Below are positions 10,855 through 53,161 of a stretch of 64,000 nucleotides of DNA, in pieces. The stretch covers positions 5,952,001 to 6,016,000 of the forward strand of contig NZ_CP121666.1 in the NCBI RefSeq assembly GCF_029714325.1, read 5' to 3'. This DNA comes from Bradyrhizobium sp. CB1717 (GTDB lineage Bacteria; Pseudomonadota; Alphaproteobacteria; Rhizobiales; Xanthobacteraceae). The first letter of the stretch is position 1; every line of letters starts with the position of its first letter. A model generated the notes under the pieces. It worked only from the letters and a program-made list of their open reading frames with translations. It had not been told where the DNA came from and ran no database searches. The translations under genes were made by a program, and so were the position numbers.

Positions 10855-11628
10855 TTACGCCGGCACCGGCTCGCCCTCGGCGTGGCGATGCTTCTCCGGC
10901 AGATAGGCCAGCAGCATTTCGCGCACCAAGGTCGGGCTCTTGGAGTCGCGGATCATCAGGATGCCGTCGATGATGAGGGTGCGGTTGGTCTCTTCGTCCA
11001 GCAGCTTGCCGTGCAGCTTGTCGGCGATCGGCAGACAGAACAGGTTGGCGACGAGCGCGCCGTAGAGCGTTGCGAGCAGCGCGGTCGCCATGAACGGGCC
11101 GAGTTTGGACGGATCGGTCATGTTGGCGAACATCTGCACCATGCCGATCAGGGTGCCGATCATGCCGAACGCCGGCGCGCAGTCGCCGATGGCGCGGTAG
11201 ATCTTGCTGCCCTCGTCGAGATGCATCAGGAAGTTGTCGCGGTCGCGCTCGAGATTGTCGCGGATGAAGTCGAGGTCGTAGCCGTCGGCGACGTAGCGGA
11301 TGCCCTTGGCGAGGAAGGGCTCGTCGGTCTCGACCTTTTCGAGACCCACCGGGCCCTGCTTGCGGGCGATCTCGGCGATGCGGGCGAGCTCGTCGACGAG
11401 GTCGTGGGCCGACAGCCGGCTCATCGTGAAGGCGAACTTGGCGCCGAGCGGAAGGCCGTGCAGGAGCGCCGAGAGCGGAAAGCGGATCATGGTCGCGGAG
11501 ATGGAGCCGCCGAAGATGATGATCATGGCATGTTCGGAGATGAACATGTGCAGGTCGCCGCCCATGAAGATCATCGCCGTGATGACGATGATGCCCGCCG
11601 TGAGCCCAACGCCCGTCATGATATCCAT
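10855..11628 (-). CDS. motA: Flagellar motor stator protein MotA
   Basis: 257 residues from the ATG at 11628. GGAG is 6 bases upstream; an in-frame TTG 12 bases further out would place that GGAG inside the gene. Four membrane helices are predicted, two near the N-terminus and two in the MotA/TolQ/ExbB channel region (FGMIGTLIGMVQMF and MATALLATLYGALVANLF), with a long cytoplasmic loop between them for contact with the rotor. The domain supports the proton-channel role with MotB, encoded directly downstream. Confidence 0.93.
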   Translation of the reverse strand: MDIMTGVGLTAGIIVITAMIFMGGDLHMFISEHAMIIIFGGSISATMIRFPLSALLHGLPLGAKFAFTMSRLSAHDLVDELARIAEIARKQGPVGLEKVETDEPFLAKGIRYVADGYDLDFIRDNLERDRDNFLMHLDEGSKIYRAIGDCAPAFGMIGTLIGMVQMFANMTDPSKLGPFMATALLATLYGALVANLFCLPIADKLHGKLLDEETNRTLIIDGILMIRDSKSPTLVREMLLAYLPEKHRHAEGEPVPA

Positions 11629-11924
11629 GGGAGACTCCAACGCGTCCGCAACAACGGCCGTCCTGGCCGCTGGCGCGGCCCAACCCCGAACCGCATCGGA
11701 AACCCTAGAGCGCCGCCCTTAAAGCCGCGTAAAGGTTAAGCCGGGGCAGTGTGCGAGGCGCTGCTGCGCGCGCAGCGATTGCCGTCCAAGGACGGGAATC
11801 TCAACACTTCGCTAACCATACGTAGGCGCGCTGGAACGACGCTGCGGCCCTACGCCACGTCGAGACGATCGATCATTTGGTATTTTCTGGCCGTCCGGCA
11901 TGCTCGATCGCGGGAGACATCGCG

Positions 11925-12218
11925 ATGTTGACGCTGTTCAGTCTTCTTACCGCACTGCCGGCGGTGCTGGCGCTCCATCTGCTGGAGCCGGAGCTCGTGC
12001 TGCCGGCGTTCAGTGTGCTGCTCTTTGTCGAAGCCGCCTTCGCCGTGCTCGCAGCGCGGTTGATTCACTCCTCCGACAGCACAGACGACATCACGCTGTG
12101 GGATCTTGCCGGCGGCTGCACCCTGATCGGATGCGCCGCCGCCGTGCTCGGCGAGCCGGATCAGGCCGCCCTGTTTCTGACGGAACACGGCAACCCGCGG
12201 CCGGCATCGCGGCCGTAG
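11925..12218 (+). CDS. Small membrane protein of unknown function
   Basis: 97 residues from an ATG preceded by GGGAG at 11912-11916. Three hydrophobic stretches are visible: LTLFSLLTALPAVLALHLL, PAFSVLLFVEAAFAVLAARL and a weaker LAGGCTLIGCAAAVLG. These suggest an inner-membrane protein. I recognise no family. It runs divergently from motA, with about 300 bases between the two starts in which I see no other gene. The stop is just before the decayed rraA-like fragment. A real gene is likely from the site and the membrane pattern, but its role is unknown. Confidence 0.62.
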   Translation: MLTLFSLLTALPAVLALHLLEPELVLPAFSVLLFVEAAFAVLAARLIHSSDSTDDITLWDLAGGCTLIGCAAAVLGEPDQAALFLTEHGNPRPASRP

Positions 12219-12225
12219 GTCGCGC

Positions 12226-12425
12226 TTGGTGGATCTCCGCCGAGCGCTTCAGCGCGACCTTCGGCTTCTCCAGCGAGAAATCGGGGCTGCGGGCGATCCC
12301 GGGTCGGCATCTTCCGGCGATCGCAGAGTTCGTCGGCCTCGGGCAGCTTTGTGGCCACGTCGAGTGGGATCACGACTGCACCTTGCCGGTGAGACCATCG
12401 GACTTCACGGACCTGGGGTACCGCA
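12226..12425 (-). pseudogene. Decayed fragment of an rraA-like gene, copy of the 3' end of the gene at 13027
   Basis: Bases 12226-12425 align with 13024-13225, the 3' end of the intact rraA-like gene. Shared blocks include ATCTCCGCCGAGCGCTTCAG, CTTCTCCAGCGAGAA, GGGCAGCTTTG and TCGGACTTCACGG. On the minus strand the fragment still reads GAVVIPLDVATKLPEADELC, against GAIVIPLDIAAKLPEAAELC in the intact gene. It then loses the frame through small deletions, and the stop codon is gone. Both ends are missing, so no product is expected. Identity looks to be roughly 80 percent by eye, so the duplication is not recent. Confidence 0.8.
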
Positions 12426-12611
12426 ACCTTTGCTTGAGTTTGAACGACCACAAGCTAAAATCACTCGGACGTGATGACCTCGTGGGCTGATCGGCAAGCA
12501 AGAATGCTCGCGTGCCAGGCGGGACCTTGAACCTTCTCTCGCCAGCTCGGACCTATCGATTGCGGCGGCACATCCGTCACAGCAACCAGACTGGTTTCAA
12601 AGGAGCTGCAA

Positions 12612-12797
12612 ATGGTCGAAAAGACGTCCGAGGCAGGTGCGGCACATCAAGAGACTGTCAAACCCGGCGATCCCGCACAGGCGAAGGCGCCGGTCGCAGC
12701 GCTGAGTGATGCGCTGCCGGATGATCAACTCGACACGGTTTCGGGCGGCGCGTGGCCGACTACCACCTCGAAGTATAACACCGGCCCCGGCGGTTAG
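12612..12797 (+). CDS. Small peptide with bacteriocin-type double-glycine leader
   Basis: 61 residues. AGGAG stands at 12601-12605, 6 bases before the ATG, a near-ideal site. The first 46 residues look like a leader: charged and Ala-rich, ending in ALPDDQLDTVSGG, which matches the L-x-x-x-x-L-x-x-V-x-GG pattern of double-glycine leaders cut by peptidase-containing ABC exporters. The predicted core after GG is only 15 residues, AWPTTTSKYNTGPGG, with no Cys. A strong hairpin follows the stop. No exporter, maturase or immunity gene is in the window. Function as a secreted peptide is inferred, and a non-exported leader-like protein remains possible. Confidence 0.68.
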   Translation: MVEKTSEAGAAHQETVKPGDPAQAKAPVAALSDALPDDQLDTVSGGAWPTTTSKYNTGPGG

Positions 12798-12825
12798 TCG
12801 CCTTCGCCCCGGAATGCCATGCTCA

Positions 12826-12849
12826 ATGCCGGCCTCACGAGGCCGGCAT
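12826..12849 (+). terminator. Hairpin after the double-glycine peptide gene
   Basis: Perfect 10-base stem ATGCCGGCCT / AGGCCGGCAT with a CACG loop, starting 28 bases after the peptide stop. The sequence after it (TCTTTCTCTT a little downstream) is only weakly T-rich. It is a plausible intrinsic terminator for the peptide transcript, and possibly bidirectional for the converging rraA-like gene. Confidence 0.55.
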
Positions 12850-13026
12850 CTCCGATGACGTCTTTCTCTTATGCCCAAGCGGCCGGCGGGAGCTGGCATC
12901 GGCTTGATGCCTGCTATTGCCGGATTCGGACCAGCGGAATGTCAAGCGATGGCCGCATCATCAGGGCACGGCGGAGTTCATCTCTGCCCTGACTGCGGCA
13001 GAGTGCGAGCCTCCTCCCCCCAAAGC

Positions 13027-13746
13027 TTAGTGAATCTCCGCCGAGCGCTTCAGTGCGGCCTTCAGCTTCTCCAGCGAGAAGTCGGGGCTGCGCGCGATCT
13101 CGAGGATCGGCGTCTCGCGGCGACCGCAGAGCTCGGCCGCTTCGGGCAGCTTTGCCGCAATGTCGAGCGGGATCACGATGGCACCGTGCTGGTCGGCATG
13201 GATGAGGTCGTCGGACTTCACGGTCATGCCGGCGACGCGAACCTCGCCGCCAAAGCTCTCGGCATGCACCCAGGCATGCGACGGGCCGATCGAGCCGGCG
13301 AGCGCCTGGAAGCCAGGAGCCCATTGCGGGATGTCGCGGATCGAGCCGTCGGTGATGACCCCGAGGCAGCCAAGCGCCTTGTGCACGTTGCTCTGCACCT
13401 CGCCCCAGAACGCGCCATAGCCGACATCAGGACCGTCGATGTCCTGGATCACCGAGATGCGCGGACCGTGCCCGGTGCCGACATATTCGTAATATTCGAT
13501 GCGGCGCTTCGACTGCTCTTCAGGTGCAAGCGAGGACTTCAGCACCGAGCGAATTGCGACCGTGCGGGCATAGCCGACGATCGGCGGCAGATCGGGAAAC
13601 GGGCAGACCAGTTGCTTGGTGGTGTAGCCGATCAGCCGGCGCTCGGGCGCCACGATCTCCATGGCGTTGCAGATCGTCGGGGTGTCGTAGCGGCCCAGCG
13701 CTTCGAGGACGGAGGCGGGCAGCGGCCCGGTCGCTTTATCAGTCAC
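13027..13746 (-). CDS. RraA-like protein (HMG/CHA aldolase superfamily)
   Basis: 239 residues from a GTG start with GGGAGAG upstream. The fold is shown by YDTPTICNAME near residue 20, the central GCLGVITDGSIRD motif (G-x-x-x-D-x-x-x-R-D, which holds the metal-binding acid and substrate Arg in the aldolases) and the HADQHGAIVIPLD segment. Members are either inhibitors of RNase E (RraA) or divalent-metal 4-hydroxy-4-methyl-2-oxoglutarate/oxaloacetate lyases. The DGSIRD motif and the larger size favour a lyase or related enzyme. A decayed copy of its 3' end lies about 800 bases away at 12226-12425. Confidence 0.82.
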   Translation of the reverse strand: MTDKATGPLPASVLEALGRYDTPTICNAMEIVAPERRLIGYTTKQLVCPFPDLPPIVGYARTVAIRSVLKSSLAPEEQSKRRIEYYEYVGTGHGPRISVIQDIDGPDVGYGAFWGEVQSNVHKALGCLGVITDGSIRDIPQWAPGFQALAGSIGPSHAWVHAESFGGEVRVAGMTVKSDDLIHADQHGAIVIPLDIAAKLPEAAELCGRRETPILEIARSPDFSLEKLKAALKRSAEIH

Positions 13747-13868
13747 GGCGTTCTCTCCCAGATTGGCGGTCGCTGTTGGCGCGATGCCGCCGGCACAGGG
13801 CGATATAGCCGAGATCGGGCCTCAACCCAACTCAGAGGGCCTCATGGCAGATATCCGCGCGGGGCCGC

Positions 13869-50718: not shown

Positions 50719-50727
50719 AGCATGATC

Positions 50728-50743: not shown

Positions 50744-50764
50744 CGGCAGTGCATTACGCGTGCC

Positions 50765-53014
50765 TCACAAGGCATAACGCCGGTAGAGCACGACGATGAC
50801 AGCGAGCACCGTCCCGGCATAAATGACCTGCGCTGCGTGATCCAGAACGACAGCGGCGCGCTTTCGGCCGGTGGCCCGAAGTTTTTCATGTTTGTAGCCC
50901 GCCAATATCGTCATCAGGCATAGTACGAAGAAAATGTAGAACATCTCTTCGACCACCACCGTGTATCCGACATCGCCGATCTGGCTGCTCACCGCTACGA
51001 GCAGCACCGCGCTCGCCAGGATCGAGGTCACTGGGATCGTCACGCGTTCACGAAACATGGTTTCGGGAAAGAACAGCGTCGCGAATACGACGAGCACGAG
51101 CAGGAACATCGGCAGCAGGTTCTTCAGCATGTAGATGGAGGAGCTGCGGCGCAGCACGATGGTCGCATCGAATCCTGCGAATTCCGTCATTGCCTCGGCA
51201 TCAAACAAAGACGCCTTGCCGAGCGTCGATCCGCTGGACATGGATTCGACGAAATAGTTCAGTCCCAGAAATCGCCAGAGCGGAAGCCCGGAATAGGCCC
51301 CGTCCTCGGCCCGCGAGCTTCCGTCGTCGGCAAGGCGCAAGCCGAACCGATCGATGACATACGTGATGAGTTCCCGCCGTTGTTCCGTGTTCTGGAAATG
51401 CAGACGCAATTCCTGCGTGTCGAACGGATAATCATGGAGATCGAAACGGGTCTTGAAATCGCCGTTGATGCGATAGAGCCGATAACTCAGGCCGTCTTCC
51501 CGTCCAGCCTGCATCGGCCGAGCTGCATCGAACGCCCCGCGATCCAGCAAGGCCGGGAATTCGACGTGCGTCTGCGCCTCATCGTCGCCAGCGAACCGCA
51601 TCCAGAGATAGAAGTCGACGTTGAACGAATTTTGTTTCACGTCGATCCGACCGACGCGAATGATGTCGATGCCGGTATAAACGACGCGTTGAATCCAATA
51701 GCGCCGCCCCTCGAACGCGATGACATGGCCCTTCTCCCGTTCGGCGTCGAGATCGATCCCATCCGGCTGATCGATGCGCACGAGTTGCAGCGGCGCCGTG
51801 ACGAACCGACCGTAACGGAAGAAGCCCATTCGGATCGGGCGCGGAATGTCGCGGTTCGCGTTGAAATAGAGCCGCCCCGTCAGCCCGACGACCGCCGATT
51901 TCGGACTGTCGATCGCGGCCAGTGCGAGGCGCACCCGGTCGCGATCCGCAACCTTGCTGTCGGATGGCTTCTGAATCCCCTGCCCCATAAACCGGCGATG
52001 TACGGCAGCTCGTCTCAGCGCGTCGATCATCAGGCGCGCGGCGTCATACGAGCCACCGCCAACCCAGCTTGGGGAGGTTCCCGCTCTCGCTTTGTAGTCG
52101 GCGGCGAAAGCCTGCGCCGCCACGCCGGCGCTGTCGAAAATCAGCGACGATGCCGCATACAGATTCTCACTGAAGAAACCCGGACGCGTTTGTTCCTCGG
52201 GCTCGTTGACGAAATTTCTCAAATAGCTTTCGCGGCCCGCGCCCTGGGTTGTGATGATCGTCCCCTTGATGCCGCGGCGACGCAGCGCCTTGACGATGTC
52301 TGCGATATAGTCGGCTGCCGCGCCGACGACGATGACACCGGGACCTGGCTCCTGCGCGGCAGCGTCCAGCACCTCATCCATCGATCGGATCTGACCGGCT
52401 GCGACGTCCAGTCCGAACACACGCAGCTGCTCCGCCGGATAGGCCGCCGCAAATCCACGCTCAAAACTCTTGCCGTAGGAATCGCGCGTGTGAACAAGAC
52501 GGACTCTCGGCTCCTTCATCACGGCGCGCAGATGTTCCGCGATCGAGCGCGCCTGTGCGGAGACTGGCGACAACGCACGAAAATAGTAATCACTGGTGGA
52601 TGTCAGATCGTCGGCAGCCGCGCTTCCCGTGAGCGCCGGAATCCGCGCATCCTTATATGCCGGCGCGGCCGCGAGCGATGCGGAGCTGAGATAATGGCCG
52701 AGCACAGCGACGCATGGGCTGTCGGCGATCGCCTGCGCATTCGCGCGCGCCACGGCCGGATCGCTTGCGTCGTCGAACAGAACCAGTTCAATCAGCCGTC
52801 CGTTGACGCCACCCTTGGCGTTCACTTCGTCGATTGCAAGCTGCATCGCGATCAGGCTTTCCGTCCCAGCCGGGGCGGATGGGCCAGAGAGCGAATTGGC
52901 GAACGCGATGCGAATAGGCTCCGGGCGGGTCCAGAGGACGGCGGCCCAGGCGACGCCGAGCACCAGGGCGATGCCCGCAACAACGGCAAGCCACATGATA
53001 AGCCGCGGCTTCAT
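50765..53014 (-). CDS. LivJ-type periplasmic binding domain fused to a pentameric ligand-gated ion channel
   Basis: 749 residues from the ATG at 53014 (GAGG 7 bases upstream; ATG 53029 is an alternative). An N-terminal hydrophobic signal or anchor leads into a type I binding domain, residues about 35-400 (IRIAFANSLSGP, AIDEVNAKGGVNGRLIELV, VVGAAADYIADIVKALRR). Residues about 440-622 read as a pentameric-channel ectodomain: FNVDFYLWMRFAGD and the loop HDYPFDTQELRLHF (529-534), without the animal Cys pair. Four helices follow: M1 (about 627-649, with LLP), M2 ERVTIPVTSILASAVLLVAV, M3 (686-706), M4 (730-747). M2 aligns with nicotinic M2: Glu -1', Arg 0', Thr 2', Leu 9'. Ligand unknown. Confidence 0.85.
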   Translation of the reverse strand: MKPRLIMWLAVVAGIALVLGVAWAAVLWTRPEPIRIAFANSLSGPSAPAGTESLIAMQLAIDEVNAKGGVNGRLIELVLFDDASDPAVARANAQAIADSPCVAVLGHYLSSASLAAAPAYKDARIPALTGSAAADDLTSTSDYYFRALSPVSAQARSIAEHLRAVMKEPRVRLVHTRDSYGKSFERGFAAAYPAEQLRVFGLDVAAGQIRSMDEVLDAAAQEPGPGVIVVGAAADYIADIVKALRRRGIKGTIITTQGAGRESYLRNFVNEPEEQTRPGFFSENLYAASSLIFDSAGVAAQAFAADYKARAGTSPSWVGGGSYDAARLMIDALRRAAVHRRFMGQGIQKPSDSKVADRDRVRLALAAIDSPKSAVVGLTGRLYFNANRDIPRPIRMGFFRYGRFVTAPLQLVRIDQPDGIDLDAEREKGHVIAFEGRRYWIQRVVYTGIDIIRVGRIDVKQNSFNVDFYLWMRFAGDDEAQTHVEFPALLDRGAFDAARPMQAGREDGLSYRLYRINGDFKTRFDLHDYPFDTQELRLHFQNTEQRRELITYVIDRFGLRLADDGSSRAEDGAYSGLPLWRFLGLNYFVESMSSGSTLGKASLFDAEAMTEFAGFDATIVLRRSSSIYMLKNLLPMFLLVLVVFATLFFPETMFRERVTIPVTSILASAVLLVAVSSQIGDVGYTVVVEEMFYIFFVLCLMTILAGYKHEKLRATGRKRAAVVLDHAAQVIYAGTVLAVIVVLYRRYAL

Positions 53015-53161
53015 CGTCGATCCTCGCATCGGTCGGCATAAGCCGAGATTCTCCAGATCGAGGCCTCACTCAGGTGGAGATTGCCGCCGCTGAGAGCGTT
53101 TTTCAAGCCTGCCCGATCGCCCCGGCAAGATCTACGACCGCTCAAACAATAGCCTAAAGCC

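Follow-up and report, generated by a model that had tools for sequence, protein, structure and literature searches.

The genome of Bradyrhizobium sp. CB1717 is a single 9.23-Mb contig (NZ_CP121666.1), and in the 64,000-nucleotide stretch analyzed here (positions 5,952,001–6,016,000, designated the window) it carries a gene whose product begins like a solute-binding protein and ends like a neurotransmitter receptor. Is this protein part of an uptake system, or a receptor in which a type I periplasmic binding protein (PBP-I) domain controls the pore of a pentameric ligand-gated ion channel (pLGIC)? We conclude that the gene probably encodes the subunit of a homo-oligomeric, presumably pentameric, ligand-gated channel of the inner membrane, whose pore would open when the PBP-I domain closes on its ligand. 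We also consider it rather likely that the PBP-I domain and the receptor ectodomain form a portable ligand-gating unit found on two unrelated pores, namely the four-helix receptor pore and, in a larger family from Azospirillum, magnetotactic bacteria and other proteobacteria that seems not to have been described, the MscS pore.

The gene is one open frame of 754 codons without an internal stop (749 residues if counted from the second ATG, at 53014). It lies on the minus strand, which the initial annotation of this locus had left unsaid; plus-strand frame 1 over 50765–53014 contains a stop and is unrelated to it. All 120 listed homologues (of 144) have a PBP Pfam domain and 98 aligned over at least 90% of the query, which excludes a frameshift joining two separate genes, and named Bradyrhizobium homologues are 84–98% identical. 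The proposed domain order, a PBP-I domain followed by an ectodomain with a YPFDTQ loop and four membrane helices, was borne out by Pfam, NCBIfam and PDB-sequence profiles and by an AlphaFold2 model (mean predicted local distance difference test score (pLDDT) 82.9, predicted TM-score 0.77). For the N-terminal half, Peripla_BP_6 matches residues 38–349 (E 4.6e-42) and ANF_receptor residues 59–396 (E 6e-16); the best PDB sequence match is LivJ (1z15, E 9.2e-21), and Pfam and the fold search agree on a two-lobed PBP-I fold. For the C-terminal half, the NCBIfam models TIGR00860 (residues 529–709, E 3.2e-11) and NF033918 (residues 615–737, E 3.5e-7) match, both far under their curated cut-offs. A profile of 47 aligned sequences including the window protein (alignment A1) matches a GABA-A delta chimera (E 4e-13), GABA-A alpha-5 (E 8.8e-11) and, over positions 491–741 from ectodomain through pore, GABA-A gamma-2 (E 2.1e-9). 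The model shows the strand order of the receptor-type beta sandwich. The ectodomain has no cysteines, and the Cys-loop cysteines are reported to be missing in prokaryotic relatives of receptor channels (PMC4795631).

The register in which the second membrane helix (M2) had been aligned with nicotinic M2 also holds: among the 47 A1 rows, E661 (−1′) is kept in 45, R662 (0′) in 44, T664 (2′) in 41, T668 (6′) in 45 and L671 (9′) in 45, and four helices with a hydrophobic 9′ residue are a feature of pentameric channels. Because Glu occupies −1′, cation flow is our best guess, and the inner-membrane cation pore previously suggested for this protein is likely.

Several observations weigh against a receptor-type channel. 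The rows shown by a fold search with the whole model are nearly all PBP-I domains and cover only residues 36–420, and pLDDT over M1–M3 is moderate (47–78 per ten-residue block). Pfam lists neither Neur_chan_LBD nor Neur_chan_memb for the window protein at E up to 1, and at E up to 0.1 it finds the former in two and the latter in three of the A1 rows. Position 4′ of M2 is Pro in 46 of these rows, a residue unusual there for pLGICs, and among eight more distant PBP-I receptor channels that we aligned, five have no Glu at −1′. Since the NCBIfam and PDB profiles match, we read the Pfam miss as a limit of sensitivity; a search of the whole genome with PF02931 gave no match, but neither did the control genomes. 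The five channels suggest that selectivity is not uniform across PBP-I receptor channels, and ion selectivity may differ within this architecture.

The union of this sensor and this pore, the central idea of the initial annotation, is not new. It was printed in 2004, together with the comparison to glutamate receptors: Tasneem et al. described N-terminal PBP-I fusions in receptor-type channels of Magnetospirillum magnetotacticum and Bradyrhizobium japonicum, likened them to NMDA-type and metabotropic receptors and proposed that they are chemotaxis receptors (PMC549065). In the passages on these fusions to acetylcholine receptor type ligand-gated ion channels, the domain order equals that of the window protein, one fusion comes from the same genus, and most genomes have one receptor channel, as does that of the window; these passages contain no functional test of the fusions (PMC549065). 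Literature listings and the beginnings of abstracts, a search that most subscription journals lay outside, likewise yielded no functional study of a receptor channel with a PBP-I domain. Jaiteh et al. (2016) removed the terminal parts and state that biological conclusions require experiments (PMC4795631).

The window protein can also be compared with better-known systems. GLIC, ELIC and sTeLIC resemble it in having a Cys-less ectodomain and a four-helix pore, and to our knowledge they have no N-terminal binding domain. The earlier statement that prokaryotic channels lack such a module is thus right, as far as we know, for GLIC and ELIC. It does not hold generally, as the fusions of Tasneem et al. 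have this very domain and DeCLIC, according to the sections of the reports on it, is a bacterial pentameric channel with an added periplasmic N-terminal domain of another type, two jelly-roll lobes with calcium sites instead of a PBP-I fold (PMC9897478, PMC12664993). DeCLIC is described there as the only pentameric channel with a partly characterized N-terminal domain (Fan et al. 2025, PMC12664993). Ionotropic and metabotropic glutamate receptors share the N-terminal PBP-I domain, and mGluR3 is among the sequence matches of the window protein (E 2.6e-4). In ionotropic glutamate receptors a PBP-II domain is split by a P-loop pore, and we know of no glutamate receptor with a pLGIC ectodomain, their pores or helix bundles being of other folds. 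The three Pfam matches of the window protein include no PBP-II family, and its pore matches receptor channels instead.

The ligand had been proposed to be probably an amino acid or a small carboxylate. We take the LivJ contacts for the amino acid to be Ser79, Thr102 and Glu226, the last presumably touching the amino group. The position of Glu226 is Gln262 in the window protein (HMMER alignment) and Gly, Gln, Ala or Ser in all 47 A1 rows, never Glu; Ser79 is retained in 46 rows, and the Thr102 position is Ala, Phe, Ser, Leu or His. Glu is present at the Glu226 position in 4 of 18 wider receptor-pore representatives. The window protein does not retain the LivJ contact set as a whole, and the missing Glu226 makes an amino acid doubtful and only a possible ligand. 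The second part of the proposal fares better: a small carboxylate would fit more closely, and aromatic-acid binders are among the fold neighbors of the PBP-I domain.

The sister family emerged from a full-length profile search at the class level, which returned four longer frames of 1009 to 1107 residues (L047–L050, two cut by the end of the locus). These frames parallel the window protein through the PBP-I domain and the ectodomain and then diverge. In all four, Pfam detects Peripla_BP_6 together with the MscS beta domain (PF00924, E 4.7e-15 to 6.7e-19), NCBIfam MscS models match this pore as well, and L047 carries an extra cyclic-nucleotide-binding domain; in the window protein, neither Pfam nor NCBIfam gives an MscS match. 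Scoring of 7996 candidates in a database search with the ectodomain region of L048 yielded at least 307 proteins at E 0.001, and 115 of the 120 matches listed have both PBP and MscS Pfam domains. Among the named sources are Azospirillum, Magnetospirillum, Magnetococcales and Gammaproteobacteria; a member is present in nine plasmid records of Azospirillum, and the copy of Azospirillum sp. B510 (NC_013856.1) is annotated as a substrate-binding protein. Both pore types occur in at least three assemblies (G1066, with L053 and L087; G1081, with L056 and L088; G1102, with L068 and L089), a co-occurrence that depends on the assembly because these are drafts of more than 100 contigs. The available text of Tasneem et al. 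contains neither "MscS" nor "mechanosensitive" (PMC549065), and the literature search described above found no receptor ectodomain in an MscS protein.

We relate the MscS-class ectodomain to receptors on two grounds, its profile matches with the receptor-pore class and its predicted fold. For each ectodomain profile only rows of the class in question were used; circularity affects matches within a class but not those between classes. Reversed-sequence controls of the two profiles gave best E values of 1.8 and 0.87. The Foldseek TM-scores of the fold match are modest (0.36–0.46 by query, up to 0.59 by target), and a second aligner, applied to the list from Foldseek itself, gave a clearer match. 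A profile of 18 MscS-class ectodomain pieces found no receptor among PDB sequences, with one match at chance level (E 1.5).

The two classes differ at the Pro-loop. From 311 ectodomain rows, 12 without an assigned pore were removed, leaving 160 receptor-pore rows (114 database proteins and 46 locus frames) and 139 MscS-pore rows (118 and 21), 299 in total, which include near-copies and some genes counted more than once. The Pro-loop proline is present in 160/160 receptor-pore and 41/139 MscS-pore rows, and the aspartate in 159/160 and 16/139. For the tree, 19 of the 299 rows (ectodomain start before residue 330) were removed and the rest reduced at 60% identity to 64 representatives, 18 with a receptor pore and 46 with an MscS pore. 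Pro-Phe-Asp occurs in 17/18 of the former, all of which keep the proline, and in 0/46 of the latter, where the proline alone persists in 14 and the aspartate position is Gly in 44. It was also found in all five receptor-pore loci added later. Trp476, Arg478 and Gly453 are shared by both classes (18/18, 17/18 and 18/18 receptor-pore representatives, respectively, and 46/46 MscS-pore representatives for each). An STLG-like motif after the Pro-loop did not hold as a mark of the two classes (140/160 versus 42/139 rows). From these alignments we infer that the Pro-loop has its function at the receptor pore and was rebuilt upon the exchange of pores; on the MscS pore it appears to have given way to another conserved motif.

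In the tree of the PBP-I domain plus ectodomain (64 rows, 567 columns), one branch parts the pore types (support 97/89; recovered in 96% of 200 bootstrap trees). The tree is unrooted, long branches meet within the receptor-pore side, and the long-branched MscS protein L069 adjoins that side. Since the Pro-loop was lost and the ectodomain is found on its own pore elsewhere, we favor the order in which the receptor pore came first and the MscS pore later, the direction not being settled.

Two sets of frames stand beside these classes. L090 (G1117:C222:25700-29100) is a PBP-I plus ectodomain frame of 729 residues with a hydrophobic end; it matches neither pore profile and has no Pro-Phe-Asp, and it could be either a broken MscS-class copy or a third kind of output. 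The Myxococcota frames L027 and L028, and L030 and L032, which have no pore match, comprise 406–434 residues with an ectodomain, too short for an added PBP-I domain, and are probably plain receptor channels.

A route for gating can be proposed. Both the PBP-I domain and the ectodomain would face the periplasm. There a small solute would shut the two PBP-I lobes; an organic acid or an amide is a likelier candidate for it than a classical alpha-amino acid. The movement of the lobes would pass through a short linker (about residues 413–440) to the ectodomain, and from there the Pro-loop and the strand that runs into M1 would carry it on to open the M2 pore. The output would be depolarization or cation entry, given Glu at −1′. 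The PBP-I domain and ectodomain would be an old sensor unit, which the sister family uses on an MscS pore. The PBP-I domain might instead only capture or concentrate the solute or tune the channel, while the actual agonist occupies the interface between ectodomain subunits, as it does in animal receptors. Tasneem et al. proposed, in the passage concerned, prior concentration or sensing of a ligand that then binds the channel's own domain (PMC549065), and the N-terminal domain of DeCLIC, in the parts of the reports on it, influences gating. However, the PBP-I domain stayed with the ectodomain across the change of pore, which fits a direct sensor at least equally well, and we regard mere capture or tuning as unlikely.

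The distribution of the gene bears on whether it is functional at all. At E 1e-60, 21 of 265 genomes of the genus match it, one match each and none with an internal stop. The order-level sample gave 5 matching genomes of 397, its own included, and the class-level sample 6 of 385, comprising its own, one receptor-pore protein (L046) and the four MscS-class proteins. In its own genome, 40 other matches are all limited to the PBP-I half, and PLSDB holds no plasmid-borne copy at E 1e-60. The dN/dS ratio (nonsynonymous to synonymous substitution rates) against eight relatives is 0.13–0.31. The patchy spread would suit a lone gene that is decaying or selfish and has no channel function, as would a genus match (G039) that begins only at residue 89 and the B. 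erythrophlei copy (L022, 7826–10138), whose N-terminal part sits in another frame; the dN/dS values and the lack of internal stops make this reading very unlikely.

In the window, the channel gene adjoins genes for an aldehyde dehydrogenase (ALDH), a hydroxyisobutyrate-dehydrogenase-like protein, a LysR regulator and a TRAP transporter. These neighbors, and source names of homologues that read substrate-binding protein, would suit a solute-uptake protein (the usual annotation being ABC transporter substrate-binding protein) whose membrane part is an anchor or a vestigial pore. We hold this to be very unlikely: a Pfam scan of six neighbors revealed neither an ABC permease nor an ABC ATPase, the pore and coupling residues are conserved, and the neighbors vary. 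Among the 17 named loci with the channel gene (L009–L025), several with flanks that end early at contig ends, the moaA/ALDH setting is common only to L009, L010, L013 and L016, and apart from the gene and its antisense frame every frame family occurs in at most five. At L084 moaA and ALDH stand side by side without the channel, and only 5 bp separate the points to which window positions 50719 and 53164 map. The ALDH and hydroxyisobutyrate-dehydrogenase-like operon was for the same reasons rejected as a clue to the ligand.

Flanks were compared for those loci whose DNA matches that of the gene, L024 and L025 being too distant. Similarity stops upstream between 53108 and 53146 (at 53146 in five loci) and downstream at 50756–50762. 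The shared block consists of the gene, up to 117 bp upstream (53030–53146) and 9 bp downstream (50756–50764); about 70 bp further downstream are common to some relatives among themselves. The channel gene stands alone, carries its own leader, occurs at varying sites and is kept under selection, as indicated by the varying neighbors, the loss of similarity at the gene edges, the empty site in L084 and the low dN/dS. The common leader and short tail are seen at unrelated sites in the flanks of L011, L012, L014, L017, L021 and L023. The flanks of L022 (3613–5451, plus strand; 11428–13812, minus strand) have, by eye, mobile-element primase-like, patatin-like phospholipase and nucleotidyltransferase-like genes nearby, a setting reminiscent of CBASS defense. 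An open frame of 553 codons (51380–53041, plus strand) lies antisense to the channel gene and is likely a GC-driven by-product. Residues 8–33 are predicted to be either a signal anchor or a signal peptide. Coordinates are collected in Table 1.

Table 1. Features of the channel gene (window coordinates) and related frames (locus coordinates)
Feature	Coordinates	Strand	Basis
Whole gene, PBP-I + pLGIC ectodomain + four-helix pore, 754 residues	50765..53029	-	frame, homologues
N-terminal hydrophobic helix, residues 8-33	52931..53008	-	AlphaFold2 model, hydropathy
PBP-I (LivJ-type) domain, residues 37-420	51770..52921	-	
Pentameric-receptor ectodomain (beta sandwich), residues 434-628	51146..51730	-	profile matches, model
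Pro-loop YPFDTQ, residues 534-539	51413..51430	-	P535, F536, D537 invariant in 47 A1 rows
M1 helix, residues 630-653	51071..51142	-	AlphaFold2 model
M2 pore helix, residues 660-683	50981..51052	-	AlphaFold2 model, A1 alignment
M3 helix, residues 689-719	50873..50965	-	AlphaFold2 model
M4 helix, residues 723-752	50774..50863	-	AlphaFold2 model
Longest block common to relatives at other genomic sites (gene + flanks)	50756..53146	-	DNA comparison
Distant PBP-I receptor channel without Glu at M2 −1′	L042 1327-3609	-	
Distant PBP-I receptor channel without Glu at M2 −1′	L044 1375-3705	+	
Distant PBP-I receptor channel without Glu at M2 −1′	L046 1453-3693	-	
Distant PBP-I receptor channel without Glu at M2 −1′	L071 949-3339	-	
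Distant PBP-I receptor channel without Glu at M2 −1′	L072 1360-3507	+	
MscS-class frame	L047 1-3321	-	
MscS-class frame	L048 109-3297	-	
MscS-class frame	L049 1399-4632	+	
MscS-class frame	L050 1-3027	-	
Further single-frame PBP-I + ectodomain + MscS-pore loci	L052-L061, L063, L064, L066-L070		

The window protein is genuine and conserved, is encoded by a single gene and belongs to an architecture already described; its gene offers a clear, single-copy case of a receptor type that received its name more than 20 years ago. In view of the sister family, the PBP-I domain and ectodomain appear to be a portable ligand sensor that suits pores of different kinds. If this is true, MscS channels with such a cap would be ligand-gated, and either the ectodomain ring or the MscS pore must break its textbook symmetry, which is five for the receptor ectodomain and seven for MscS. 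The sister family would then show the ectodomain of a nerve receptor driving a pore of a different fold, and it would make ligand gating of MscS channels testable. The two pore classes would also constitute a natural experiment that separates the ectodomain residues serving the pore (the Pro-loop) from those serving the sensor (Trp476, Arg478 and Gly453).
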